Assembly (NCBI RefSeq): GCF_000230735.2
Contig: NC_019962.1
Coordinates: 2,604,001-2,668,000 of the forward strand
DNA length: 64,000 nucleotides
Reading direction: 5' to 3'
From: Natrinema pellirubrum DSM 15624
GTDB lineage: Archaea > Halobacteriota > Halobacteria > Halobacteriales > Natrialbaceae
Position numbers and translations under genes: made by a program. The first letter of the stretch is position 1. Each line of letters opens with the position of its first letter. Of this stretch, positions 28,937 to 41,094 are shown in pieces. A model generated the notes under the pieces. The model did not search any database, was not told where the DNA came from, and worked only from the letters and a program-made list of their open reading frames with translations.

Positions 28937-29722
28937 CTACTCGGCTTCGGCCGCTTCCGTCTCCGAGTCGTCCGATCCCTCGTCGGTCACCGTCTCGACG
29001 ATCTCCGTGGTCATCTCTTCCCGGCTGAGGTTGGCCTTCACGCCGACGTCTTTCGCGACCGACTGCAGGTCGCTGTAGGACAACACCCCGAGGAAGTCCT
29101 CGAGGGTGTCTTCCCGCAGGTCTTCGATCTCTTCGACGGACGGCTCGGTGTCTCCGTCCGAATCCGCCGTTTCGTCGGTTTCCTCGCCGCCCTCGGTTTC
29201 CGACTCGGTCTCGGCACTGTCCTCGACCTCCTCGTCAGCCTCGTCGGAGTCCGCCTCCTCGTCGACCGACGGTTCGTCCGTGTCCGACTCCGCCTCGCCC
29301 TCCGATTCCGCGTCGTCGGTATCCCCGCCTTCGTCGCTGCCTCCCTCGAGCAGGCCCTCGACGCCGCCACCTTCGGTGACGCCTTTCGCCATCGACTCGA
29401 GGGAGTCACGGCCCTCGATCTCCGAGATCGATTCCCGAACGGCGTCCGTGACCGCCGTCCGAACCTCGGCCGGCAGGTCGCCGAGTTCCTTGCCCTCCTC
29501 GAGGCCCTCGGCGACCGTCTCGTGGACCTCGCGACCGACGGCGGTCCCCAGTTGCCGCCCGAACTGCTCGCCGAACTGGCGGCCGACCGCGGCCCCGACC
29601 TCGCCGCCGTCGATACTGTCCTCGAGGCTGCCGTCGCCGAGCAAGTCGGCCACGTCGACCTGTTCTTTTACCTCGTCGGCGACCATCCCCTTCAGCCCGG
29701 ACTCGTCACTCACGCCGATCAC
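28937..29722 (-). CDS. Acidic cluster protein 3: glycine-zipper plus SAP-like domain
   Basis: A 261-residue protein of unknown family. Glycines recur every fourth residue at 39, 43, 47, 51, 55, 59 and 63 (for example VGAAVGRQFGEQFGRQLG), forming a seven-glycine zipper. A helical part follows (about 70-115), then a Glu/Asp/Ser-rich region (about 125-195). The C-terminal 50 residues resemble a SAP or Rho-N type helix-extended-loop-helix (YSDLQSVAKDVGVKANLSRE). The zipper is paralogous to that of the gene upstream, 41 nt away. It could be an oligomeric scaffold with a nucleic-acid or protein-binding end. Confidence 0.68.
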   Translation of the reverse strand: MIGVSDESGLKGMVADEVKEQVDVADLLGDGSLEDSIDGGEVGAAVGRQFGEQFGRQLGTAVGREVHETVAEGLEEGKELGDLPAEVRTAVTDAVRESISEIEGRDSLESMAKGVTEGGGVEGLLEGGSDEGGDTDDAESEGEAESDTDEPSVDEEADSDEADEEVEDSAETESETEGGEETDETADSDGDTEPSVEEIEDLREDTLEDFLGVLSYSDLQSVAKDVGVKANLSREEMTTEIVETVTDEGSDDSETEAAEAE

Positions 29723-29763
29723 CGCCGCTCAAGCGGGCGTCGTAGCGAAGCCGGCTCACGGGC

Positions 29764-30261
29764 TTACTCTTCCTCCTCGGCTTCGGCTTCCATTTCGTTC
29801 TCGGCGTCCTCGTCGGCCGCGTCGTCGCCCTCCGCCGACTCCTCGTCGCCGGCATCGGCGTCGCTTTCGGCCTCGTCTTCCGCCTCGGTTTCTTTTTCGG
29901 TGGCTTCGTCTTCGGACTCGGTACTCTCCTCGTCGGGCGACTCCTCGCCCTCGGATTCCGACTCATCGGACTCCGCTTCGGTGGCTTCCTCCTCGGAGGC
30001 GCCGCTTTCCTCCTCGGCTTCCGACTCGGACTCGTCGCTGCTGAGCAGTTCCTCGACGACCATGCTCCCGATCGTCCGGCCGAGCGATTCGCCGACTTTG
30101 CGACCGACGAGCGCACCGATCTGCCCGCCGAGTGCCGCGCCGAGGGGCATGTCCTCGTCGATCTCGTCTTCCCACTGGGTCCCTTCGACGAGCTGGTCGA
30201 CGTCGATGTTCTCCGTGATCGCTTCCGTGTCGATCCGCTGTGTGATGGATTCGTCGCTCAT
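29764..30261 (-). CDS. Acidic cluster protein 2: glycine-zipper protein
   Basis: A 165-residue protein of unknown family. An N-terminal Ile/Asp-rich segment (QRIDTEAITENIDVDQLVEG) precedes a seven-glycine zipper with glycines at 41, 45, 49, 53, 57, 61 and 65 (LGGQIGALVGRKVGESLG). The last 90 residues are almost only Glu, Asp, Ser and Ala. The zipper region is charged, so an oligomerising helix is as likely as a membrane helix. The ATG overlaps the stop of the 462-residue gene upstream by 4 nt, indicating translational coupling. Confidence 0.68.
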   Translation of the reverse strand: MSDESITQRIDTEAITENIDVDQLVEGTQWEDEIDEDMPLGAALGGQIGALVGRKVGESLGRTIGSMVVEELLSSDESESEAEEESGASEEEATEAESDESESEGEESPDEESTESEDEATEKETEAEDEAESDADAGDEESAEGDDAADEDAENEMEAEAEEEE

Positions 30262-31646
30262 GATGTCGCCTCCGTTTCCGCTGCCGATTCCGGCTCGCCG
30301 CCGGACGCCGTTTCCTCGCTCTCGGGCTCGAGTTGCTCGATCAGTTGTTCGATCACCTGCGAGACGACGGCCGCGACGATCTCCTCGACGGGCAGACTGG
30401 GGACGAGCCCGGACAGCTTCTCGCGCAGCCAGCCGCCCACTCTGGCGAGCGGGCCGGGTGACTCCTCGCCCGCATCCACCTCGTCGGTCTCGTCCGCGGT
30501 TTCCTCGCCGGTCGTCTCGTCGGCCGCTTCATCCGCTTCCTCGCCCTCGTCCGCAGCAGCCTCGCTTTCCTCGGGACCGCCGCCGAAGAGCCCGCGGAGC
30601 CACGCCACGGGCTTCCTGAGGATCGCTTTGAGCCAGCCGCCGAGCGACGAGAGCGGGCCGCCGGACTCGCCCTCGGACTCCTCGCCTTCGGCTTCCCCGC
30701 CGCCGATACCGAGGAGCGCGGTCAGCCACTCTTTGGGCTTGCTCACTAACCCGCTGAGGAACTCCTTGGGCTTCTCGAGGAGGCCGCTGAGAAGCTCTTT
30801 GGCCTTCCCCGGGACCTTCTTGAGCAACTCGAGCGGCTTTTTCAGCAGCGATTTCGCCTTGTCCAGCATGGCACCGGGACCGTCGAGCAGCCCCGTCACC
30901 GCCGACAGCAGGTTCCCGAGCAGGTTGTTCGACCCCGGCCGCGCCGAGACGTCCAACTGCACCGGGTTCAGGTTCACCTCGAGGCCGAGCAGGTCGAGAA
31001 AGAGCCCGTCGAGATCGAGGTGGAGGACGCCGGCGGCGTCGTCGCCCTCGTAGACGTCCTCGGCGTCCGCAGCGTGGCCCTCTTCGCGATCGTCCTCGAC
31101 GAGGTCGCCGGTATCGGCCCGTTCGTCCTCGTCTTCGTCCTCCCCTGCTGAGTCCTCGTCTTCGGCGTCCGCGTCCGCGGGCTCTTCGTCGGTTTCCGCC
31201 TCGGAGGATTCCGCCGCCGGCCCTTCGTCAGTGTCTGCGTCCGACTGTTCCTCCTCGGCTTCCGCCGTTTCATCGTCCTCGGTTTCCTCTGCCTCGCTCT
31301 CCGACGACTCCTCGTCTTCTGTCGCTTCTTCGTCCGCAGCGTCCTCTTGCTCGTCCTCCGCGACCGTTTCGTCTTCGGCACCTTCCTCGTCCTCGGCTTC
31401 CGCTTCCGACCCCTCATCGCCGTCTTCGGCCGACTCGTCTTGCTCCGCTCCCGAGGCGTCTTCGTCGCCCTCGGGGCCGTCACCCTCGTCGTCCGGTTCT
31501 TCCATCTCCGCTTGGCCGCCATCGGTCAGCACCCGGTGTGGCGGCCCCGTCGGCCGCTTCCCCTCGTCGGGACGGCCCGCGGAGCGCTCGCCCCGCTCGA
31601 GGGCCGAACGCTCTCTCGAGCCGTCACGGTCGAACTCTGCGGTCAT
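30258..31646 (-). CDS. Acidic cluster protein 1: amphipathic 11-residue repeat protein
   Basis: Of its 462 residues, 50-200 are an acidic low-complexity arm. A conserved-looking core (about 207-256) combines short hydrophobic strands with GNLLGNLL-type helix motifs (LDLLGLEVNLNPVQLDV; NNLLGNLLSAVTGLLDG), a pattern I have seen in secreted bacterial and archaeal hypotheticals. Four in-phase 11-residue amphipathic repeats follow (270-280, 281-291, 292-302, 303-313: K-P/A-K/L-E-hydrophobic-L type). Then come a further helix, a second acidic arm and a C-terminal amphipathic helix (about 418-440). It is first in the cluster. A start at 31505 (Met48) is an alternative, because a TATA-like motif directly abuts 31646. 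Confidence 0.68.
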   Translation of the reverse strand: MTAEFDRDGSRERSALERGERSAGRPDEGKRPTGPPHRVLTDGGQAEMEEPDDEGDGPEGDEDASGAEQDESAEDGDEGSEAEAEDEEGAEDETVAEDEQEDAADEEATEDEESSESEAEETEDDETAEAEEEQSDADTDEGPAAESSEAETDEEPADADAEDEDSAGEDEDEDERADTGDLVEDDREEGHAADAEDVYEGDDAAGVLHLDLDGLFLDLLGLEVNLNPVQLDVSARPGSNNLLGNLLSAVTGLLDGPGAMLDKAKSLLKKPLELLKKVPGKAKELLSGLLEKPKEFLSGLVSKPKEWLTALLGIGGGEAEGEESEGESGGPLSSLGGWLKAILRKPVAWLRGLFGGGPEESEAAADEGEEADEAADETTGEETADETDEVDAGEESPGPLARVGGWLREKLSGLVPSLPVEEIVAAVVSQVIEQLIEQLEPESEETASGGEPESAAETEATS

Positions 31647-31749
31647 TATACGACAAAACGGACGGTAGTGAGCGTTGTGGGGGTTGGCCTTGCGTATGCG
31701 ACAGGCTCGGCCCAGCGGACAACGAACGTCGAAAACAAGTACCGATCCG

Positions 31750-33132
31750 CTACTCGAGCGAGCTGACTCGGAGCGCGTACTCGCCGCGGGTCTCGCCGTC
31801 GTCGTGGTAGGCGACGGGCTCCTCGATCGCGGCGATCGTTCCGTCGCCGACGGCCGCAGCCGTGGCGATTCCCTCGAGCCGTTCGACCCCGGCCGGACCG
31901 GACTCGAGGTCGAACCGGCGAACGGCGTGGGTGTCGGGATCGCGAACGCGGAAGTTCTGGGCACAGGGGGCAACCAGCTGGCCGCCGGCAGCGGCCAGGC
32001 CGTGGACGAAGCCCCGGACTTCGGCGTCCCACAGCGGGTCGCCGTCGGCGTCGAACGCCGCGACGCGGTGTTCGTTCGGGTGGCGGCTGTCGGTCTCGCG
32101 GCTCTCGACGGCGTAGGTGTTGCCGGTCACGAACGCGACCCGGCCATCGTCGGCGTAGACGTGGTTCGGATAGGCGTACAGGGTCTCGCCGTCGATTGCC
32201 GTTTCGACGGCGAGATCGACGCTCCAGCGCTCTGCCCCGCCGGGTCCGAGCAGGTAGCCCCGTTTGTCGCCGTGACTCGAGACTGCGATGGCGTCGCCGT
32301 CGAACGAGACGTCACCGACGCGGCGGTCGCCCTCGGTGCCGGGGTCCCACGTCCACTCGAGGTCGCCACCTTCGGCGGTTTCACCGTCTTCTCGCGGGCT
32401 TTGCCCGCTCGAACGTTCCGCGGAACTCCGTTCCGCGCGACCTCCGTTTCGCGACGACTCAGTCGTCGCGCCCGTCCCGAGGACGACGAGCCCGGTGTCG
32501 TGGTCGCCCATGCAGCGGTTGTAGCCGACCGCCAGCCGCTCGCCGTCGGCAGAGGGATCGAGCGCGATCGGCGAGGCGTCGGTCTCGTAGGTCCAGCAGA
32601 CAGCGCCGTCGGGGGCGAACGCATAGACGGTGCTGTGCCACTGTCGGGTCTCGCCGTCGCGTTCGTACCGCCGCGCGGCGGCGTAGAGCCGTTCGTTGCC
32701 GTCCGCGTCGGTCCCCGTCTCGAGCGCCACGACGTAGGGCAGGTAGAAGACGGTGTCCTTGACCGGCTCACCGACGTCGTCGGCAGTGTCGTAGCGCCAC
32801 CGGCGTTCGCCCGTCGCGGCATCGTAGGCCGCGATCGTTCCGGTCTCACCGCGGCCGGCGACGACGATCGTCTCGTCGTCTTCGAATGATGTGACCCCGA
32901 CCGCGTGGTCCGGATGAGCGACCGTCCACCGGGCCTCGAGCGAGTCGACATCGCGGGCGGTGACGGTGCCGTCCCACTCGCCGGTGACGACGAGATCGCC
33001 GGACTCGGCGAGTCCGACCGCCGAGCGGGTCCACATGTGGCGGCTGCGGGCGGGCTCGATCTCGCCCAGCGAGGCGGTCCGAAAGTCGAGGCCGTCCTCG
33101 CGTTCGGTGTCGACAGTCTCGGTCATCGTCAT
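31750..33132 (-). CDS. PQQ-type beta-propeller repeat protein of the cobalamin operon
   Basis: A 460-residue cytoplasmic (no signal peptide) beta-propeller. Blades show the WD/PQQ-like pattern (TIAAYDAATGERRWRYDT; HRVAAFDADGDPLWDAEV). It is the last gene of the cbiT-started operon, overlapping the DUF3209 stop by 4 nt. Family members sit in haloarchaeal cobalamin clusters, but their role is unknown to me; a scaffolding or substrate-channelling role is a guess. Between two blades a 35-residue Ser/Arg/Glu-rich insert is encoded by a three-hairpin element (see 32394-32469). Confidence 0.82.
   Translation of the reverse strand: MTMTETVDTEREDGLDFRTASLGEIEPARSRHMWTRSAVGLAESGDLVVTGEWDGTVTARDVDSLEARWTVAHPDHAVGVTSFEDDETIVVAGRGETGTIAAYDAATGERRWRYDTADDVGEPVKDTVFYLPYVVALETGTDADGNERLYAAARRYERDGETRQWHSTVYAFAPDGAVCWTYETDASPIALDPSADGERLAVGYNRCMGDHDTGLVVLGTGATTESSRNGGRAERSSAERSSGQSPREDGETAEGGDLEWTWDPGTEGDRRVGDVSFDGDAIAVSSHGDKRGYLLGPGGAERWSVDLAVETAIDGETLYAYPNHVYADDGRVAFVTGNTYAVESRETDSRHPNEHRVAAFDADGDPLWDAEVRGFVHGLAAAGGQLVAPCAQNFRVRDPDTHAVRRFDLESGPAGVERLEGIATAAAVGDGTIAAIEEPVAYHDDGETRGEYALRVSSLE
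32394..32469. repeat. Triple-hairpin palindromic element inside the beta-propeller gene
   Basis: Three perfect short palindromes in a row: gcgggc-ttt-gcccgc (32394-32408), gcggaac-tcc-gttccgc (32420-32436) and gcgacgact-c-agtcgtcgc (32451-32469). They lie in coding sequence, in frame, in a linker that is Ser/Arg/Glu-rich and unlike its surroundings. This is what an intergenic-type palindromic repeat looks like after insertion into a gene without breaking the frame. Confidence 0.65.
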
Positions 33133-33500
33133 TCCTCTACCGGAAAGGTCTCGTGGAGGGTGTCGTGGGCGTCGCCGAGCCCATCGACGATGCTCGATCC
33201 CTGTGTACGAAGCCGCTGGATCGCTCGCTCGGCGTTCCGGACCTCGAGCAGCCGGCCGCGCGTGTAGTCGAATTCGGGGTCCTCGCTATCCAGCGCGGCG
33301 ACCTCTTCCTCGAGGTCGACCAGCGCCGCGTCGAGGTGGCGTTCGATCTCCGTGAGGCTCTCGGCCTCCGCGAGGCCCTTGATCGGCCCCTCGAGGTGGC
33401 CCTCGAGTTCCTTCTCCGCGTGATCGCGGGTGCTGTCGTCCCCGACGCCGAGGACGTTCATCAGTCCGAGTCGTAGTGCTTCGATTTCGTGGCAGCTCAT
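33129..33500 (-). CDS. DUF3209 family protein
   Basis: A 123-residue helical protein that begins MSCHEIEALRLGLMNVLG and is helical throughout, with Glu-rich amphipathic helices. The family is known from haloarchaeal cobalamin clusters, typically beside cbiX. The conserved Cys3/His4 pair near the N-terminus could hold a metal, but no function has been shown to my knowledge. It lies 41 nt after the cbiX stop and overlaps the propeller gene by 4 nt. Confidence 0.85.
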   Translation of the reverse strand: MSCHEIEALRLGLMNVLGVGDDSTRDHAEKELEGHLEGPIKGLAEAESLTEIERHLDAALVDLEEEVAALDSEDPEFDYTRGRLLEVRNAERAIQRLRTQGSSIVDGLGDAHDTLHETFPVEE

Positions 33501-33541: not shown

Positions 33542-34774
33542 TTACAGCGTCTGATCGACGAGGTCGCTCACGATGCGGTCCCGGTCTAAGTGGTCCGAGA
33601 CGATCCGTTCGGCGTCGCCGTCGTCGACGCCGCCGTACCAGACCCCGTCCGGATAGACCGCGACCATCGGCCCGTCGCCACAGCGGCCGAGACAGGACGA
33701 CCGCGTGATGCGGGCATCGCAGTGATCCGAATCCCGGACCTCCTGTCGGAGTCGCTCGAGGACCGCCGGCGACCCCATCTTCGCGCAGGTCTGGTTGGTA
33801 CAGACCGCGACGTGTTTCTCGGGCGCATCGTGGCTGTCCGGCTCCGCGTCGACGTCGTCGCGGTCGGCGTGGGCCTCCTGGTGGGCAAGCGCCCGCAGCA
33901 TGGCCCGCGCACCGCCGACGTCTTCCTCGTAGCCCTCGAGGTCGACCTTGTACTTGCAGGTGTCACAGGACATCTCGACGCTGTCGGTCCGGGCCTCCTC
34001 CCAGCGGTCGGCGAATACGTCAAGCAGCCGGGAGTCGGTCCCGAGTGGATCGCCGGCCAGCGCGTCGACGTAGGGGTAGTCCTCGTCGAACTCGGCGGTC
34101 CAATCGCGCACCCGCTGGGTGAGGACGCCGTCACCGAGCATATACGGCAGGACGACGACCGCGTCGGGCCGGTGCTTCGAGAGCCCGTGGAGGGTGTCCT
34201 CGAGCGTCGGCTCGGTGACGCCGATGAAGGAGGCCTCGACGCGGTCGAACGCGCGGCCCTCGTAGAGCAGCCGGGCCAGTTTGTGGACGTCGCCGTTGGC
34301 GTCCGGATCGCTCGAGCCGCGGCCGCAGACGACGACGGCCACGTCGTCGTCCGCGCGGTCGACGCCGAGTTCGGCCTCGATGGCGGCGGCGCGGTCGTCC
34401 AGCAGATCGAGGATCGCGGGATGGACCCCCAGATGCGAGCCGTTGTTGATCTCGATGTCGTGTTCGGCCCGGGCCTGCTCGATCGCCAGGGGCACGTCGT
34501 TTTTGACGTGGCTCGCGGCGAACAGCGAGCAGTGGACGACCGTCACCTGCGAGGTGACAGGCGCGAGCTGGGCGAATGCCTCGTCGATCGCCGGCTCCGC
34601 GAGTTCGAGGAAAGCGGCGTCGACCGGGATGCCCAGCCGGGACTCGAGGTCGGCGGCCAGTTCGCGGACCTGTTCGTTGGACTTCTCGCGTCTGGAGCCG
34701 TGGCCGATCAGGAGGACGGCCTCGTCGTCGAAGCCGGCAGCGGGCGCGGCCGTGGTGTCGTCGGGTGTACTCAT
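33542..34774 (-). CDS. cbiX: Sirohydrochlorin cobaltochelatase CbiX with C-terminal [2Fe-2S] domain
   Basis: Inserts Co2+ into sirohydrochlorin, the first step of the early-cobalt B12 route. Residues about 15-265 hold two CbiX chelatase domains in tandem (LLIGHGSRREKSNEQ in the first; VVVCGRGSSDPDANGDVHKLAR in the second). After a CDTCKYKV motif and a His/Asp-rich linker, the last 100 residues form a thioredoxin-like [2Fe-2S] ferredoxin (C-x4-C in CTNQTC; C-x3-C in SSCLGRCGDGP). This long form is about three times the size of archaeal CbiXS. The start follows the upstream stop by 1 nt. Confidence 0.92.
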   Translation of the reverse strand: MSTPDDTTAAPAAGFDDEAVLLIGHGSRREKSNEQVRELAADLESRLGIPVDAAFLELAEPAIDEAFAQLAPVTSQVTVVHCSLFAASHVKNDVPLAIEQARAEHDIEINNGSHLGVHPAILDLLDDRAAAIEAELGVDRADDDVAVVVCGRGSSDPDANGDVHKLARLLYEGRAFDRVEASFIGVTEPTLEDTLHGLSKHRPDAVVVLPYMLGDGVLTQRVRDWTAEFDEDYPYVDALAGDPLGTDSRLLDVFADRWEEARTDSVEMSCDTCKYKVDLEGYEEDVGGARAMLRALAHQEAHADRDDVDAEPDSHDAPEKHVAVCTNQTCAKMGSPAVLERLRQEVRDSDHCDARITRSSCLGRCGDGPMVAVYPDGVWYGGVDDGDAERIVSDHLDRDRIVSDLVDQTL

Positions 34775-34775
34775 A

Positions 34776-35486
34776 TTACTCGTCGTAGGCGTCAGCCTGC
34801 TCGAGACTGCGCTCTAGCTTGCGTCGACGACTCGGCGCGAACAGACCCGTTTCCTCGCAGTCCTCGTAGAGCCACGTACCGAAGTCGGGTGCGGCGGCGT
34901 CGTCGACGCCGAACCAGTAGCCCCCCGAGGAGGTCTCCGAGAGGTCGCCCGTCGGCGCATCGACCGGACAGTCGGCGATCAACTCCCGTGCGAACGCGAG
35001 CAGGTCCCGATCGTCGTGGACGAACGAGATCCCGACGGTGCCACTCGAGGACTTGAAACAGACGGTGCCACAGCCCTCGAGCAGCCCCCGCAGGAGTTCG
35101 CGCTCGTGGCCCGCAAAGGCACCGAACCGGTAGTTGCCGCGGCCGTCGACGGGCAGCCCGAGCGCACCGCTGCGGCCGAGCAGCCCCGACTCGCCGTCGT
35201 CGGCGTCGATCGTCAGGACGTACTCGTCCTCGGTGCGCGTGATCGACGTGTCGTGGGCGTAGTCCCTGGTCGTCGTCTCGCGCTCGAGGTCGCCGCCCGC
35301 GACGGCGGCCAGCACCCCTGCGGACGCTTCATCGTTGGCGACGACTTCGATCCGGTCGTCGGACACGTCGCCGCTGCCGGCGACGTGACCCCAGAAGTAC
35401 GCCGTCGCGGCGTGGCCGGCCAGCGGGTCAGACGGAACCGATACCTCGAGTGCGTCGCCGTCGGCCGACGACTGGGCGTCGCTCAT
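34776..35486 (-). CDS. Cobalamin-operon protein with LAGLIDADG-like fold
   Basis: A 236-residue protein, not a known B12 enzyme. Two motifs 80-90 residues apart look like the paired helices of LAGLIDADG/WhiA proteins (AYFWGHVAGSGDV, about residue 29; LLRGLLEGCGTV, about 131). The second is followed by the usual beta-sheet and helix (VGISFVHDDRDLLAFARELI). The C-terminus ends in an RRRKLERS helix. The acidic active-site residue of each motif is replaced (Ser and Cys), so nuclease activity is unlikely. It overlaps the ferredoxin gene by 4 nt. A DNA-binding regulator or a ligand-binding fold are both possible. Confidence 0.7.
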   Translation of the reverse strand: MSDAQSSADGDALEVSVPSDPLAGHAATAYFWGHVAGSGDVSDDRIEVVANDEASAGVLAAVAGGDLERETTTRDYAHDTSITRTEDEYVLTIDADDGESGLLGRSGALGLPVDGRGNYRFGAFAGHERELLRGLLEGCGTVCFKSSSGTVGISFVHDDRDLLAFARELIADCPVDAPTGDLSETSSGGYWFGVDDAAAPDFGTWLYEDCEETGLFAPSRRRKLERSLEQADAYDE

Positions 35487-35749
35487 TCGCCCACCTCCTC
35501 GACGATGATGGCGTCCGTCGGGCAGGCCGCCGCGGCCTGCTGGGCCTCGTCGATGCGGTCGTCGTCGAACGTCGCGACGACGCGCTCGGCATTGTCGGTG
35601 ACCTCGCCCTCGCAGTCGTAGACCGGGTCCGCGTCCGGGTCGACGGTCGCGAGGCCGTCCTCGCCCTCGACGAATCGCGGGTCGCGGGTCAGACAGGCGA
35701 AGATGCCGTCGCAGGCGTCTTTCTCGATTGTGACTTCGTATCGTGGCAT
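35483..35749 (-). CDS. [3Fe-4S]/[4Fe-4S] monocluster ferredoxin
   Basis: An 88-residue small ferredoxin with C-x5-C (Cys13, Cys19) and a C-terminal Cys-Pro (Cys76), plus Cys46. The spacing without a second CxxC fits a [3Fe-4S] type, as in actinobacterial ferredoxins. It could supply electrons to B12 enzymes. It lies 29 nt after the upstream cbiH stop and overlaps the next gene by 4 nt. Confidence 0.85.
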   Translation of the reverse strand: MPRYEVTIEKDACDGIFACLTRDPRFVEGEDGLATVDPDADPVYDCEGEVTDNAERVVATFDDDRIDEAQQAAAACPTDAIIVEEVGE

Positions 35750-35778: not shown

Positions 35779-36813
35779 TCAGTAGTCGTACTTCGTCTCG
35801 TAGCCCCGGGGCGTGACCATCCGGTCGTCCCAGACGTAGGTGTCCTCGGTGCCGACGACGATCGTCGTCGTCATGTCGATGATCTCGCTCTCGCCGAGGT
35901 CCTCGAGCTCGCCGAGTTCGGTGATCATCACTTCCTCGTCCTCGCGGCCGGCGCCGTGGACGATACCGACCGGCGTGTCGGGCTCGCGGTGGGTCAGCAG
36001 AATCTCACAGGCCTTCTCGAAGTTCTCGCGGCGCTTGCGGCTCCAGGGGTTGTAGATGGTGATCGTGAAGTTCTCGCTGGCGACGGAGTGCAGTCGGGAC
36101 TCGATCTCGGGCATCGGGACGAGGTGGTCCGACAGCGACACCGAGACGGTGTCGTTGACCAGCGGTGCGCCCAGACGGGCCGCACAGGACTGTGCCGCGG
36201 GGACGCCCGGCACCACTTCGAAGTCGACCATCGAGGCCGTCGCGCCCTTGGACTCGAGGATCTCGAGTGCGAGTCCGGACAGCGCGTAGACGTTGGGATC
36301 GCCGCTGCCGACGATCGCCACGTCGTTGCCCGCCAGCGCGCGGTCGATCGACTCCTCGGTGCGGGAGACCTCGCCGCACATCGGCGTGTCGTAGATGTCG
36401 TCGGCCTCGTCGGTGATCTCGTCCGGGATCAGGTCGATGTAGGTCGTGTAGCCGACGATGTGGTCGGCCTCGAGCAGCGCGGCCTTCGCGCGGTCGGTCA
36501 TCCCCTCGGGATGGCCGGGACCGAGGCCGACGGCGATCAGCTGGCCGGGCTCGGCGTCGAAGTCGTCGACCGTCGCGCCGACCTCCTGCTCGTTACTGTT
36601 CGAGTCGTCGGAACTCGAGGCACCGCAACTCGAGGACGAGGAACTCGAACTCGAGGACCCACCGCACGTGGAGCCGCTCGAGTCGTCGGTACTGCTCGAG
36701 GCACCGCATTTCGAACTCGAGCTGTCGGTGCTGGCCTCGCTACTGTCGCTCGAGGAGGCACCGCAGTTGGAAGTCGATTCCGCGTCAGCGTCGGCGTTGG
36801 TGTCAGTACTCAT
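35779..36813 (-). CDS. cbiH: Precorrin-3B/cobalt-factor III C17-methyltransferase with Cys/Ser-rich N-terminus
   Basis: Contracts and methylates the macrocycle at C17 using SAM. After residue 90 the SAM-dependent tetrapyrrole methylase fold is clear (IAVGLGPGHPEGMT; GSGDPNVYAL; VPGVPAAQSCAARLGAPL; YNPWSRKR). The first 85 residues are low-complexity Ser/Asp with four Cys-Gly-(Ala/Gly)-Ser-Ser motifs at Cys17, 36, 50 and 63, which is unusual. Start at 36813 follows the upstream stop by 10 nt; 36843 would overlap that gene. A second cbiH-type gene lies directly upstream. Confidence 0.9.
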   Translation of the reverse strand: MSTDTNADADAESTSNCGASSSDSSEASTDSSSSKCGASSSTDDSSGSTCGGSSSSSSSSSSCGASSSDDSNSNEQEVGATVDDFDAEPGQLIAVGLGPGHPEGMTDRAKAALLEADHIVGYTTYIDLIPDEITDEADDIYDTPMCGEVSRTEESIDRALAGNDVAIVGSGDPNVYALSGLALEILESKGATASMVDFEVVPGVPAAQSCAARLGAPLVNDTVSVSLSDHLVPMPEIESRLHSVASENFTITIYNPWSRKRRENFEKACEILLTHREPDTPVGIVHGAGREDEEVMITELGELEDLGESEIIDMTTTIVVGTEDTYVWDDRMVTPRGYETKYDY

Positions 36814-36823
36814 GGTTGTGGGT

Positions 36824-37696
36824 TCAAAAGTCGTCGACGTCACGCCCGCCGCGCGGGGTGACGAGGTACGTTCGGTCGTCGTTGCGCCAGGTCTCGGTCT
36901 CGTGGTTGCCGATGATCAGCGAGGTGCCCATACCGGAGACCTTGTCGTCGTGGTCGGCGGCCTCGCCCAGCGTGGTGATGAACTGGCTCTCGCCGTTGCG
37001 GCCGGCGTCTTCCCGGCCGGCGTCGTTGACGATGGCTACGTAGGCGTCGTCGGTCCGCTCCTCGCGGACGATCTCGACGGCCTCCTCGTAGTTGCGCCAG
37101 CAGTTGTAGAGGACGATCACGAAATCGGAGATCGCCGCCGCCCGGAGCTTCTCCTCGATCTCGTCCCAGCCGCGCCACTTGTCCGACAGCGAGACCGTAC
37201 AGAAGTCGTTACACAGCGGCGCCCCGACGTTCGCGGAGCCGCCCAGTGCTGCCGTCAAGCCGGGGACGATTTCGATCGGAATATCCGTCGCATCGTCCTC
37301 CTCTGCCATCTTGAAGATGAGGTCGGACTTGCCGTAGACCGACGGATCGCCGCCGGAGACGTGGGCCACGTCTTTCCCCTCGCGGACGTGATCGAACGCC
37401 GCGCGGGCGAGTTCGATCTGTCGGCCCATCGTCGAGCGGACGATCTCCTGTTCGAAGCCGTCCTCACGGGTCGCGGTGCCGTCCTCGTCGGTTCGGTCCT
37501 CCGAGGGAATCGTGCCGTCGTCCCGCAGGAACTCCTGATAGAGGCTCGAGGCGATGACCACGTCCGCGGACTCGATGACCTCCTTGGCTCGCTTGGTCAT
37601 GTGGTCGGGCAGGCCGGGGCCAATACCGACGACGTAGAGGGTGCCGTGGTCGTCGGGCGTGCCGTCGCCGCTGGGAGCTGCGTCCTCCACGCTCAT
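36824..37696 (-). CDS. cbiH: Precorrin-3B/cobalt-factor III C17-methyltransferase (second copy)
   Basis: A 290-residue SAM-dependent methylase of the same fold as its neighbour (VVGIGPGLPDHMT; SGGDPSVYGK; VPGLTAALGGSANVGAPL; YNCWRNY). It probably catalyses the C17 reaction or a related ring-contraction step; which of the two paralogues is the true CbiH cannot be decided here. The ATG overlaps the cbiG stop by 4 nt, and the gene is co-transcribed with the cbiT-started operon. It lacks the Cys-rich N-terminal extension. Confidence 0.88.
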   Translation of the reverse strand: MSVEDAAPSGDGTPDDHGTLYVVGIGPGLPDHMTKRAKEVIESADVVIASSLYQEFLRDDGTIPSEDRTDEDGTATREDGFEQEIVRSTMGRQIELARAAFDHVREGKDVAHVSGGDPSVYGKSDLIFKMAEEDDATDIPIEIVPGLTAALGGSANVGAPLCNDFCTVSLSDKWRGWDEIEEKLRAAAISDFVIVLYNCWRNYEEAVEIVREERTDDAYVAIVNDAGREDAGRNGESQFITTLGEAADHDDKVSGMGTSLIIGNHETETWRNDDRTYLVTPRGGRDVDDF

Positions 37697-38682
37697 CGGC
37701 CGATCGCCACCGTGACCTCGTTCTCGTAGCCAATCTTCTCGAGGACCAGTTCCTGCTCGCGGCCGCCGGCGATCGCGCTGGCCTCGGAGACGCCCGGCCA
37801 GCCGATCAGTTCCTTGGACTTCGAGGGGGTCGGCCCCTCGTGTTCGAGCAGTGTCTCCTTGTCGAAGGCGACGACGCCCAGATCGAGTTCCTGGGCCGCC
37901 TCGAGCAGTCCCTCCTCGTCTTCTTTCCGGGTTGCGGTCCCGACGAACTCGATGTCGTCGAAGTCGTAGTCAGTTTGCTCGAGGGCTTCCTCCCACGCTG
38001 CGAGGAAGGCCTCCTTGCTGGCCCCCGAAACGCTACCGGTCCCGAGGACGACGCCGTCGTCCTTGTTCCGTTTGAGGACCGTCACGTCGTCACCGACGAG
38101 GACGGCCTTCGGCCCGTCGAGTCGGGCGACGGGCCCGAGGTTCTCGTCCAGTACGGCGAGGTTCGTCTTCACGGTCGAGTCGCCGTTGACGACGTGGGTG
38201 TCCATCGCCTTCGCGCGGGACTCGACGCCCTGCTTGCCCGCGGCCTCGCTGGCGGTGGTCATCGCCGGCACGGCACCCATCGTCGCCAAGTCCTGTGCGA
38301 CCTGGTTCGCGCCGTGGTGGCCGCCCGTGATCGGGATGGCCCACGTTAGCTCCTCGTCGACGACACAGATCGCGGGGTCGTCCCACTTGTCGTCGAGCAG
38401 GTGGGCCGTCTTCCGCATCGCGATCCCCGAGGCCATGAGGCCGATAAAGCAGTCGTACTCGCCCCAGTGTTCCTCGAAGACGTCGCCGTGGTACTCGATG
38501 ATGTCGATCGCCTCGTAGCGATCGCCGATCTCGGCTTTGATCTCCTCGGCGGTGTCCATTTTCCGGCCGAAGGAGATGATCGCGATCTCCTCGGCGACCT
38601 CGCCGTCCGAGTCCGCGGTCGAACAGTGGCCGCCGTCGGATCCCGACTCGTCGTTCGCGTTGTCAGCGTTGTCCGTACTCAT
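37693..38682 (-). CDS. cbiG: Cobalt-precorrin 5A hydrolase CbiG
   Basis: Opens the C20-derived delta-lactone, releasing acetaldehyde, in the early-cobalt pathway. The 329-residue protein has an acidic N-terminal extension (about 1-30), the central CbiG motif (FIGLMASGIAMR; WAIPITGGHHGANQVAQDLA) and the C-terminal CbiG domain (VVLGTGSVSGASKEAFLAAW; GWPGVSEASAIAGG). The presence of CbiG supports use of the anaerobic-type route. The start is 1 nt after the cbiF stop, so the genes are tightly packed. Confidence 0.93.
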   Translation of the reverse strand: MSTDNADNANDESGSDGGHCSTADSDGEVAEEIAIISFGRKMDTAEEIKAEIGDRYEAIDIIEYHGDVFEEHWGEYDCFIGLMASGIAMRKTAHLLDDKWDDPAICVVDEELTWAIPITGGHHGANQVAQDLATMGAVPAMTTASEAAGKQGVESRAKAMDTHVVNGDSTVKTNLAVLDENLGPVARLDGPKAVLVGDDVTVLKRNKDDGVVLGTGSVSGASKEAFLAAWEEALEQTDYDFDDIEFVGTATRKEDEEGLLEAAQELDLGVVAFDKETLLEHEGPTPSKSKELIGWPGVSEASAIAGGREQELVLEKIGYENEVTVAIGR

Positions 38683-38683
38683 A

Positions 38684-39604
38684 TCAATCGTCTCCCGCTT
38701 GCGTTTCGTTCGCCTGTGCGTCCGATTCGTTCCCGTCGCTCGAGTCGGGGCCCCGATTGGCCCAGTCGCCGTAGAGGAAGGAGCGCTCGTAGCCCGCGCC
38801 GGTCACCGCGTCGCCGATGACGACCAGCGCCGAGGCGCGGTAGCCCGCGTCCTCGACCTTGTCGGCGATGTCGCCGATCGAGCCGATAATAACGTCCTCG
38901 TCCGGCCACGAAGCGTGGTAGATCACCGCGACCGGCGTCTCGGGGTCGTGGTCGGCCTCGAGCAGCCGGTCCATCGTATCGCGAACGGCGTGAGTCCCGA
39001 GGTAGATGCAGGTCGTCACGTCGCCCATCTCGACGAAGTCGGAGATGTGGTCCTCCTCCGGCGTCAGGGTCTTGCCCTGTGGCCGGGTGAACGCGACGTG
39101 ATTCGACACTTCGTTGAGCGTCAGTTGGGTCCGCAGCGTCGCGCTGGCCGCGAAGGCAGACGTGACGCCGGGCACGAAGTAGGTCGGCACGCCCTCGTGT
39201 TCCAGCGCGTCCATCTGCTCGAGGGCCGCGCCGTAGATGGCGGGGTCGCCGCTGTGGAGCCGGACGACGTTGTCACCGTCCTCGTAGGCGTCCCGCATCA
39301 GCGGGATCAGTTCCTCGAGGTCCTTGCCGACCGAATTCACGAGTTCGGCGTGGCCGCAGTACTCGTCCAGCAGTTCGCTGTTGACCAGCGAGCCCGCGTG
39401 GACGACGAGGTCGGCCTCCTCGAGCAGTTCCTTGCCCGCGACGGTCAGCAGTCGCGGGTTGCCGGGGCCGGCACCGACGAAGGGGACTCCCTCCTGGTCG
39501 TCGCCGGCGCTGTGGTCGAAAATTCGGTCGTCCAGTTCCTCACGGCGGCGCTCGCCCTCGGAGTCGATCGCGTCCTGCGGGTCGTTCGGTGTGTCGTCAG
39601 TCAT
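38684..39604 (-). CDS. cbiF: Cobalt-precorrin-4/precorrin-4 C11-methyltransferase CbiF
   Basis: A 306-residue SAM-dependent methylase acting at C11. Motifs: FVGAGPGNPRLLTVAGKELL, RLHSGDPAIYGA, VPGVTSAFAASATL and IYLGTHAVRDTMDRL. The N-terminus (about 1-35) and C-terminus (after about 280) are acidic, as expected for a halophile. The start overlaps the cbiL stop by 4 nt. Order in the operon is cbiT-cbiL-cbiF-cbiG-cbiH. Confidence 0.94.
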   Translation of the reverse strand: MTDDTPNDPQDAIDSEGERRREELDDRIFDHSAGDDQEGVPFVGAGPGNPRLLTVAGKELLEEADLVVHAGSLVNSELLDEYCGHAELVNSVGKDLEELIPLMRDAYEDGDNVVRLHSGDPAIYGAALEQMDALEHEGVPTYFVPGVTSAFAASATLRTQLTLNEVSNHVAFTRPQGKTLTPEEDHISDFVEMGDVTTCIYLGTHAVRDTMDRLLEADHDPETPVAVIYHASWPDEDVIIGSIGDIADKVEDAGYRASALVVIGDAVTGAGYERSFLYGDWANRGPDSSDGNESDAQANETQAGDD

Positions 39605-40404
39605 CGGTGTCCTCCACAGTCGCCGCCCTCACGGCCCTCGGCGCGCTCGAGGTCGACCAGCGTTCCGCCGTCGGTCACCGGCTCCCCGTCCGTCGTCGCG
39701 TCCTCCGATCCGGACTCGTCGTCGGCAAAGGCGGCCGTCGCCTGTTCGACCTCGAGGTCTTCCTTCTCGGCGTAGGCGAGCGTGTAGTAGTCACGCTCGT
39801 CGATGTCTTCGGGGTCATCGGTGACGATCGTCTCACCCTGTTCCATGAACAGCCGGCGGCCGTAGGTCACGTCGTAGCCGGCCTCGACGAGTCCCTCGTG
39901 GGTTGCCGGTGCGTCGGTGACCTTGAACAGGATCATCCGATCCGGTCCCGTCGGGCTCGCGCCGCTCGCGGCCTCTCGCAGCGAGAGGCCCGCGCCGGCC
40001 TCGATCTCGACCCCCATCGCGGTCGCGAAGGCCGTCACCGCGCTCACGCCGGGGACGATCTCCAACTCGACCTCGGGGTGGAACGCGTCGATCGTCCGGC
40101 GCAGGTGGCCGAACGTCGAGTAGACGTTGGGGTCGCCCAACGTGACGAAGGCGACGTCACCGTCGCGGGCGTTCGGGGCGATCTCCGCGGCGGCCTCCTT
40201 CCAGGCCGCCCGGAGCTTTTCCTCGTCTTTCGTCATCGGGAAGTCCAGGTCCCCGATCTTCGACTCGTCGACGTGGTTCAAGGCGACGGTCCGGGAGAGC
40301 CGGCCCGGCGAGTAGACCACGTCGGCGTTCTCGAGGACTTCCTTCCCGCGAACGGTCACGAGGTCGGCCTCGCCGGGACCGAGCCCGACGCCGTAGAGCG
40401 TCAT
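39601..40404 (-). CDS. cbiL: Cobalt-factor II C20-methyltransferase CbiL
   Basis: Methylates C20 of cobalt-factor II with SAM. The 267-residue protein starts with MTLYGVGLGPGEADLVTVRG and continues through TLGDPNVYSTFGHL, VPGVSAVTAFATAMG and the ILFKV segment. The last 50 residues are acidic and Gly/Asp-rich, ending in a GGDCGGHR tail. It overlaps both neighbours by 4 nt, indicating coupled translation. Confidence 0.94.
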   Translation of the reverse strand: MTLYGVGLGPGEADLVTVRGKEVLENADVVYSPGRLSRTVALNHVDESKIGDLDFPMTKDEEKLRAAWKEAAAEIAPNARDGDVAFVTLGDPNVYSTFGHLRRTIDAFHPEVELEIVPGVSAVTAFATAMGVEIEAGAGLSLREAASGASPTGPDRMILFKVTDAPATHEGLVEAGYDVTYGRRLFMEQGETIVTDDPEDIDERDYYTLAYAEKEDLEVEQATAAFADDESGSEDATTDGEPVTDGGTLVDLERAEGREGGDCGGHR

Positions 40405-41009
40405 CGGTCCACCTCGCCGCCGTCCGCTGCGATCTCGTCGTCGTTTTCGTCCGTCTCCGGCGTTGCACTCCCGACCAGCATGTACACCGGGTTGTCCGAG
40501 TTGAAACTCGTCGCCCCGGCGAGTTCATAGCCGTGACTCACCTGGAACTGGACGACTTCCTCGAGCAGGTCTCGCTCGCGGAAGGCCTCCGTCGCTCGGC
40601 CAGCGACCTCGAGCCGCGAGACGTTCATGACGACGCGGTCGATCTCGGTCTCGACGGCGTGGTCGAGTACTTCTTCGAAGTTCCGACTCCCGCCTAGGAA
40701 GAGGGCGTCGGCGTCATCGGGCAGTCCCTCGGGCGCTTCCGCGTTGCGCAGTTCGACATCGGCGCGGACGGACGCCTCGTTTGCCGCGAGGTTTTTCTCC
40801 GTCGTCTCGAGGCGTTCGGGTTTCCGTTCGAGGGCGGTCACCCGCCCGGCTCGCTGTGCGGCGTCGATGGTGACGGCCCCCGTACAGGAGCCGACCTCCG
40901 CGAAGTGGTCGTCCGGCCCGAGCGCGAGCTTCGAGCCGACGACGGCCCGGACCTCCGACTTGGTCGGGCCGGCCTTCGCGTCGTGTGGAAGCGCGATGGG
41001 TGGCATCAT
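40401..41009 (-). CDS. cbiT: Cobalt-precorrin-6B C15-methyltransferase (decarboxylating) CbiT
   Basis: Decarboxylates ring C acetate and methylates C15. The 202-residue protein is a Rossmann methyltransferase (VGSKLALGPDDHFAEVGSCTGAVTIDAA with motif I; ALFLGGSRNFEEVLDHAV). The first two codons are both ATG (41009 and 41006); 41009 fits a TATA-like box about 25 nt upstream, so a leaderless transcript is likely. It is the first gene of an 11-gene operon. A direct repeat lies upstream. Confidence 0.93.
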   Translation of the reverse strand: MMPPIALPHDAKAGPTKSEVRAVVGSKLALGPDDHFAEVGSCTGAVTIDAAQRAGRVTALERKPERLETTEKNLAANEASVRADVELRNAEAPEGLPDDADALFLGGSRNFEEVLDHAVETEIDRVVMNVSRLEVAGRATEAFRERDLLEEVVQFQVSHGYELAGATSFNSDNPVYMLVGSATPETDENDDEIAADGGEVDR

Positions 41010-41030: not shown

Positions 41031-41094
41031 CTAAAACAATTTTGTTTGGGGTAGGACAACTGCGCTTGCCCAGTTGGAGTTGTAGTAGGACAAC
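41031..41094 (-). promoter_or_regulatory. cbiT operon promoter with gtaggacaac direct repeat
   Basis: A TATA-like box (minus-strand gttttag at 41031-41037) is centred about 25 nt upstream of the cbiT ATG. Above it, gtaggacaac occurs twice, at 41051-41060 and 41085-41094, 34 nt apart. The repeat is upstream of the box, where an activator or repressor could act. No cobalamin-riboswitch B12 box is visible. The remainder of the 181-nt cbiT-reductase gap shows nothing else. Confidence 0.45.

Follow-up and report, generated by a model that had tools for sequence, protein, structure and literature searches.

The cobalt-early B12 operon within the window (the whole 64,000-nucleotide stretch of DNA analyzed here) codes for a small protein that, judging from predicted structures and profile alignments, almost certainly adopts a LAGLIDADG fold, and the acid pair of the nuclease centre is lost from it. 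The LAGLIDADG family concerned is real, widespread and haloarchaea-specific, and there is little room for doubt that it is tied to the cobalt-early B12 pathway. A tentative reading, which we judge plausible if somewhat short of probable, is that this nuclease-dead protein handles cobalt for the cobaltochelatase CbiX, perhaps via Cys143.

A preliminary description of this DNA had placed a LAGLIDADG-type ORF inside a B12 operon, and both the ORF and its coordinates (Table 1) are confirmed. The ORF runs from an ATG start to a TAA stop and codes for a 236-residue protein of 25 kDa with a pI of 4.2. It lies between the ferredoxin gene, which it overlaps by 4 bp, and cbiX, which starts 1 bp after it. 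The cluster has the haloarchaeal cobalt-early order cbiT-L-F-G-H1-H2-ferredoxin-LAGLIDADG-cbiX-DUF3209-PQQ, with the names cbiT and cbiL taken from homology and from gene order relative to annotated records. Comparison of the LAGLIDADG gene with 10 relatives yields dN/dS values of 0.06–0.21, reflecting purifying selection, and thus it is a working gene. Some plasmid-borne copies carry the annotation 'cobalamin biosynthesis protein'.

Table 1. Features of the cobalt-early B12 cluster and of its LAGLIDADG protein; coordinates are positions in the window.
Feature	Coordinates	Strand	Remarks
PQQ-type beta-propeller protein gene	31750..33132	-	final gene of the cluster
DUF3209 gene	33129..33500	-	in Thermus too, neighbour of Fe-S CbiX
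cbiX, cobaltochelatase with C-terminal [2Fe-2S] thioredoxin-like domain	33542..34774	-	directly downstream of the LAGLIDADG gene
LAGLIDADG protein gene, 236 aa	34776..35486	-	HVO_B0055 by synteny; predicted nuclease-dead LAGLIDADG fold
LAGLIDADG motif 2 (LLRGLLEGCGTV), residues 131-142	35061..35096	-	acid position = Cys139
LAGLIDADG motif 1 (AYFWGHVAGSGDV), residues 29-41	35364..35402	-	acid position = Ser38
ferredoxin gene (Fer4_15, 88 aa)	35483..35749	-	directly upstream of the LAGLIDADG gene
corrin-ring genes cbiT-cbiL-cbiF-cbiG-cbiH1-cbiH2	35779..41009	-	part of the same operon
operator-like site CAAACAAAATTGTTTTAG before cbiT	41031..41048	-	from upstream-sequence comparison

Single-sequence searches with the LAGLIDADG protein give no hit in Pfam and nothing over a cut-off in NCBIfam, and PDB sequences searched with a profile built from the family alignment likewise yield nothing at E <= 10; naive annotation therefore overlooks the protein. 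The AlphaFold model (pLDDT 83.3, pTM 0.81) consists of two alpha-beta-beta-alpha-beta-beta repeats, and its top Foldseek match is WhiA (3hyj, E 2.3e-6). It matches both WhiA (VIA Z 15.3, rmsd 3.2 over 183 residues) and I-DmoI (VIA Z 14.5, rmsd 3.3, 166 residues), the two comparisons that the preliminary description had proposed. A second model, of a Halorientalis relative (L042; pLDDT 87.8, pTM 0.86), is also LAGLIDADG, with Z scores of 15.8 to I-Tsp061I and 15.4 to I-DmoI. Aligned by hhalign with 28 haloarchaeal LAGLIDADG_3 (intein) repeats, the N and C halves score 33.9 and 34.2, compared with maxima of 13.9 and 14.3, respectively, in column-shuffle controls (30 per half); the profiles of the two halves do not match when aligned directly to each other. 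Two repeats with paired motif helices, the marks of the LAGLIDADG fold superfamily, are found across the two AlphaFold models, the PDB comparison and the half-profiles. Because both models and the profile alignments versus shuffles agree, the original observation of a LAGLIDADG-type fold, like those of homing endonucleases and WhiA, is right and beyond chance. The literature searched, which covered few subscription papers, yielded no earlier report of such a fold for a cob-cluster protein.

The two motifs and a terminal RRRKLERS segment had also been pointed out before, and they are located at residues 29, 131 and 220 of the window protein. Residue counts refer to 77 distinct sequences out of 92 rows, with the partial L050 excluded. 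Position 38 is S in 56 of these relatives, D in 15, N in 3 and G in 3; position 139 is C in 75, S in 1 and T in 1, and is acidic in 0/77. Halorubrum lacusprofundi has Ala139 together with Asp38 and Cys143. Thus, the nuclease acid pair is never complete, and the acidic metal-binding residue that homing endonucleases have in both motifs is not found in both here. The inactivated nuclease centre suggested earlier is borne out by Ser38 and Cys139 in the window protein, but absence of the catalytic acids does not extend to the whole family, given the relatives with Asp38. Cys143 closely follows motif 2 and is invariant (77/77), as are His78, Arg133, Glu137, Arg220 and Lys223, and Arg74 and Arg120 are each present in 75/77. 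Possible conserved ligands are Cys143, His78, Cys139 (75/77) and His157 (73/77). The sheet regions are acidic by composition (K+R 5.8%, D+E 18.9%), unlike those of the 28 haloarchaeal homing repeats (K+R 13.5%, D+E 12.1%).

The survey included 292 genomes of the class and 85 genomes from other classes of the same phylum. LAGLIDADG family members are present in 145/292 and 0/85, respectively, and CbiG in 150/292, including all 145 genomes that have the LAGLIDADG protein. The protein is missing from the other five CbiG+ genomes, namely G001, G007, G052, G128 and G268. Up to nine candidates per genome were scored, such that an absence is in principle a possible miss; in G001 and G007 every candidate was scored with no family match, and the cluster regions of all five contain no copy. 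The gene is flanked by ferredoxin upstream and cbiX downstream at 67/67 loci, and at one of these (L045) it overlaps cbiX by about 30 bp. Carriage by an intron, intein or mobile element, as expected of a homing endonuclease, is not seen at these loci, all of which share one operon slot. None of 28 candidate stretches on viral contigs is related to the protein, and phage records give no match.

Comparison of the five exceptions reveals a recurrent difference in CbiX. G001, G007, G128 and G268, which group as a single clade in a phylogeny built from five concatenated Cbi proteins, have clusters reduced to cbiT-L-F-G-H1-H2-X, without the ferredoxin, DUF3209 and PQQ genes and without the CbiX Fe-S domain; in a genome-wide search, DUF3209 is absent from G001, G007 and G128 and below the cut-off in G268. 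G052 is the cleanest exception. It retains the ferredoxin, Fe-S CbiX, DUF3209 and PQQ genes, and only the LAGLIDADG gene is replaced, its exact slot being occupied by a His-tailed second CbiX (L081:11703-12644) beside the normal Fe-S CbiX. All five genomes carry a CbiX that lacks the 2Fe-2S domain and ends in a His-rich C-terminal tail (12–24 His among the final 70 residues), and since four of them are one clade, they represent about two independent losses. At the 67 loci with the LAGLIDADG protein, CbiX is of the Fe-S form in 65; L018 is truncated by the end of its contig, and L046 combines the LAGLIDADG protein with a His-tailed CbiX and lacks DUF3209. The swap of LAGLIDADG protein for His tail is therefore not strict. 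In the CbiX tree, the His-tailed forms are separated from the haloarchaeal Fe-S forms; support is weak at some nodes, and the Thermus outgroup is very distant. The cob cluster of Thermus thermophilus pTT27 contains an Fe-S CbiX–DUF3209 pair (L187:7897-9363) and cbiD, and no LAGLIDADG protein; because the pair recurs there, DUF3209 seems to accompany Fe-S CbiX. The cluster is scattered in G021, and the sole LAGLIDADG copy of this genome is divergent, unlinked to the cluster, and part of an operon-like row (L086:6445-9454) of CDF efflux, LAGLIDADG, rhodanese and CDF efflux genes.

Among CbiG+ genomes, the protein is also strongly associated, by count, with COX1 (heme-copper oxidase). COX1 is missing from 4/292 genomes. 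The LAGLIDADG protein is absent from all three of these that are CbiG+, versus 2/147 CbiG+ genomes with COX1 (G052 and G268); the Fisher p over the 150 CbiG+ genomes is 1.8e-5, a value that ignores kinship and rests on one clade. The reduced cob clusters L082, L083, L084 and L085 have a His-tailed CbiX, and three of the four genomes that carry them lack COX1; these genomes may be anaerobic haloarchaea.

The explanation that we favour, as plausible though short of probable, is that haloarchaea domesticated a LAGLIDADG protein of the homing-endonuclease type, which lost its catalytic acid pair and took on a dedicated accessory role in the cobalt-early B12 pathway. Such a protein would act at cobalt insertion, handling cobalt or presenting it, or a cobalt-loading complex, to CbiX. 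The former nuclease metal centre, with Cys139 and the invariant Cys143, may have been reused as a softer candidate metal site; the protein would then bind cobalt through some of these residues, contact CbiX and pass the metal in its direction. The reading is suggested by the strict tie to the pathway, by the fixed slot between ferredoxin and cbiX, by the His-rich CbiX tail in 5/5 CbiG+ genomes without the protein, by the G021 copy standing between CDF efflux genes, and by the conserved possible ligands Cys143, His78, Cys139 and His157. For Bacillus CbiX-L, PMC7689651 gives the proposal that the His-rich tail stores metal and delivers it.

Several observations count against cobalt supply. L046 carries both proteins, and G021 is a single case. 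The four exception genomes of one clade have lost the ferredoxin, DUF3209, PQQ and Fe-S domain as well, and Thermus has Fe-S CbiX and DUF3209 without the LAGLIDADG protein. Cys139 is dispensable, since three sequences have S, T or A at this position, and the early pathway is described as metallochaperone-independent in the abstract of PMC10206600. With approximately two independent losses and one relocated copy as its basis, the cobalt reading is kept tentative. A bolder form of it takes the protein off nucleic acids entirely, as a cysteine-rebuilt cobalt site serving as cobalt donor or cobalt-gated helper of CbiX in aerobic haloarchaea, with the His-rich tail doing the same job elsewhere; we regard this as rather unlikely. 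If true, this would give the cobalt-early B12 route its first protein dedicated to cobalt supply. To our knowledge, domesticated LAGLIDADG proteins have DNA or RNA as their targets, and one acting on a metal or a chelatase would broaden the range of this fold.

Known LAGLIDADG relatives work on nucleic acids, and the preliminary description had proposed a DNA-binding regulator of cobalamin synthesis. Such a protein might be, for example, a cobalt- or B12-sensing repressor at the CAA-N6-TTG-N3-TA sites before cbiT and cbiM. In the window, these sites are in tandem before cbiT, from the site listed in Table 1 upstream to about 41100. A usable 250-bp region upstream of cbiT was available from 57/67 sources, and all 57 contain a site with no more than four mismatches from CAAACAAAATTGTTTTA; at 54/57 loci the main site has a satellite CAA-N6-TTG-N3-TA-like unit ahead of it (shuffles: mean 1.1, maximum 5). 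The 16-mer CAANCRWWATTGTTTT is present in 118/292 class genomes, all of them CbiG+ (0/142 CbiG-) and 114 with the LAGLIDADG protein. Additional copies precede cbiM, a gene identified from the MHIMEGFLP start of its protein, which we take to be that of CbiM. From sequence comparison, the tandem sites before cbiT and cbiM look like operator sites for a cobalt/B12 regulon of haloarchaea, of which no earlier report was found in the literature searched (few subscription papers covered).

The protein and the operator do not co-vary, however, because 4/5 CbiG+ genomes without the LAGLIDADG protein retain the cbiT site, and the odd operator of G052, TTGATTTT, recurs in G166, a genome with the protein. 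CGTAA-type variants are likewise found in genomes with the protein, and assignment of a regulator by protein-operator co-variation was ruled out. Unlike WhiA, the window protein has no HTH and ends with the last LAGLIDADG-domain helix (218-235); its sheet regions are acidic relative to the homing repeats, and its gene is mid-operon, coupled to ferredoxin and cbiX. NikR-family proteins, which could bind such a site, occur in 80/80 genomes examined, with and without the pathway, so that NikR cannot be distinguished as the operator reader. Taken with the absence of an HTH, the acidic sheets and the operator in genomes without the protein, the regulator proposal is not supported and we consider it improbable; the site before cbiT is probably read by some other regulator. 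If the LAGLIDADG protein senses a ligand, the gene context points to cobalt, not B12.

The fixed slot, with ferredoxin and Fe-S CbiX as neighbours, would suit a scaffold or escort that serves the chelatase step without handling metal; it would bind CbiX, ferredoxin, or the carboxylate-rich sirohydrochlorin or cobalt-factor II and protect or channel its partner, mainly under oxygen. The protein, although acidic overall, has conserved basic residues (Arg133, Arg220 and Lys223 as invariant positions, Arg74 and Arg120 nearly so), which is consistent with this, as is the absence of the protein from all three CbiG+ genomes without COX1. This oxygen link, though, is that of one clade, and G052 and G268 lack the protein despite having COX1; a scaffold role is regarded as unlikely. 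More doubtful still is that the LAGLIDADG protein is the missing enzyme CbiD (EC 2.1.1.195) or CbiJ (EC 1.3.1.106) in a new fold. The CbiD and CbiJ families are found in 0/292 class genomes, and PMC8305020 (section 3.3) calls the four unassigned cluster genes obvious candidates for this gap. However, the five CbiG+ genomes without the protein are likewise without CbiD and CbiJ, and four of the five clusters also lack the ferredoxin, DUF3209 and PQQ genes; given these genomes, none of the four genes seems required for the ring itself, unless other proteins substitute. The LAGLIDADG protein has no Pfam hit to PF01888 or PF02571 (CbiD/CbiJ), and we know of no LAGLIDADG protein that acts as a CbiD- or CbiJ-type enzyme. 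A selfish homing endonuclease, active or recently dead and parked in the operon, would explain the fold and the similarity to archaeal homing enzymes, but the incomplete acid pair in all 77 distinct sequences, the purifying selection, the identical slot at 67/67 loci and the lack of related viral stretches (0/28) or phage record matches make it extremely improbable.

The cobalt-supply reading can be set beside known systems. In Haloferax volcanii, HVO_B0055 is a cobalamin-cluster gene of 'function unassigned' located between cbiX (HVO_B0054) and HVO_B0056/cbiH2 (HVO_B0057), and synteny of the unassigned cluster genes is kept in most haloarchaea; the parts of PMC8305020 that report this contain nothing on the fold or mechanism of HVO_B0055. 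The window LAGLIDADG gene has the same place by cbiX, an equivalence by gene order alone. The available portions of PMC2667541 and PMC11050368 contain nothing about the LAGLIDADG gene. WhiA (DUF199), a domesticated bacterial regulator, has a degenerate two-repeat LAGLIDADG domain as in the window protein; in the sections of PMC3781837 consulted, site-specific DNA binding is attributed to its C-terminal HTH, and the DNA surface of its LAGLIDADG domain is altered. The window protein differs in being archaeal, in lacking the C-terminal HTH, in belonging to a biosynthetic operon and in having Cys for the second acid. The archaeal monomeric homing endonucleases I-DmoI and I-Tsp061I share the two-repeat fold and motif register (Z 14-16), whereas the window protein has lost the acid pair, has acidic sheet regions and is not mobile. 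Bacillus-type CbiX-L (PMC7689651) has a His-rich tail like that of the CbiX found in clusters without the LAGLIDADG protein, but it is itself a chelatase, unrelated to that protein in sequence and fold. The proposed supply of cobalt to a chelatase would be analogous to that by the cobalt-late metallochaperone CobW, which, according to the passages available from PMC10206600 and PMC7689651, is a G3E GTPase serving CobNST; no nucleotide-binding family was found in the LAGLIDADG protein.

Four haloarchaeal cob-cluster genes constitute a published open problem, and one of them now has a predicted fold. The LAGLIDADG protein does not seem to be needed for ring synthesis as such, and the lead points to the cobalt-insertion step; together with the fold, this makes the question testable in Haloferax volcanii. 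Elsewhere in the cluster, CbiH2 has an N-terminal extension (window 36559-36843, minus strand) with Ser-rich CGASS-like repeats and spaced cysteines directly before the methyltransferase domain, and the extension is present in L081 as well. Directly downstream of the cob cluster is a row of highly acidic low-complexity ORFs with Glu/Asp/Ser repeats (window 28937-31973, minus strand).
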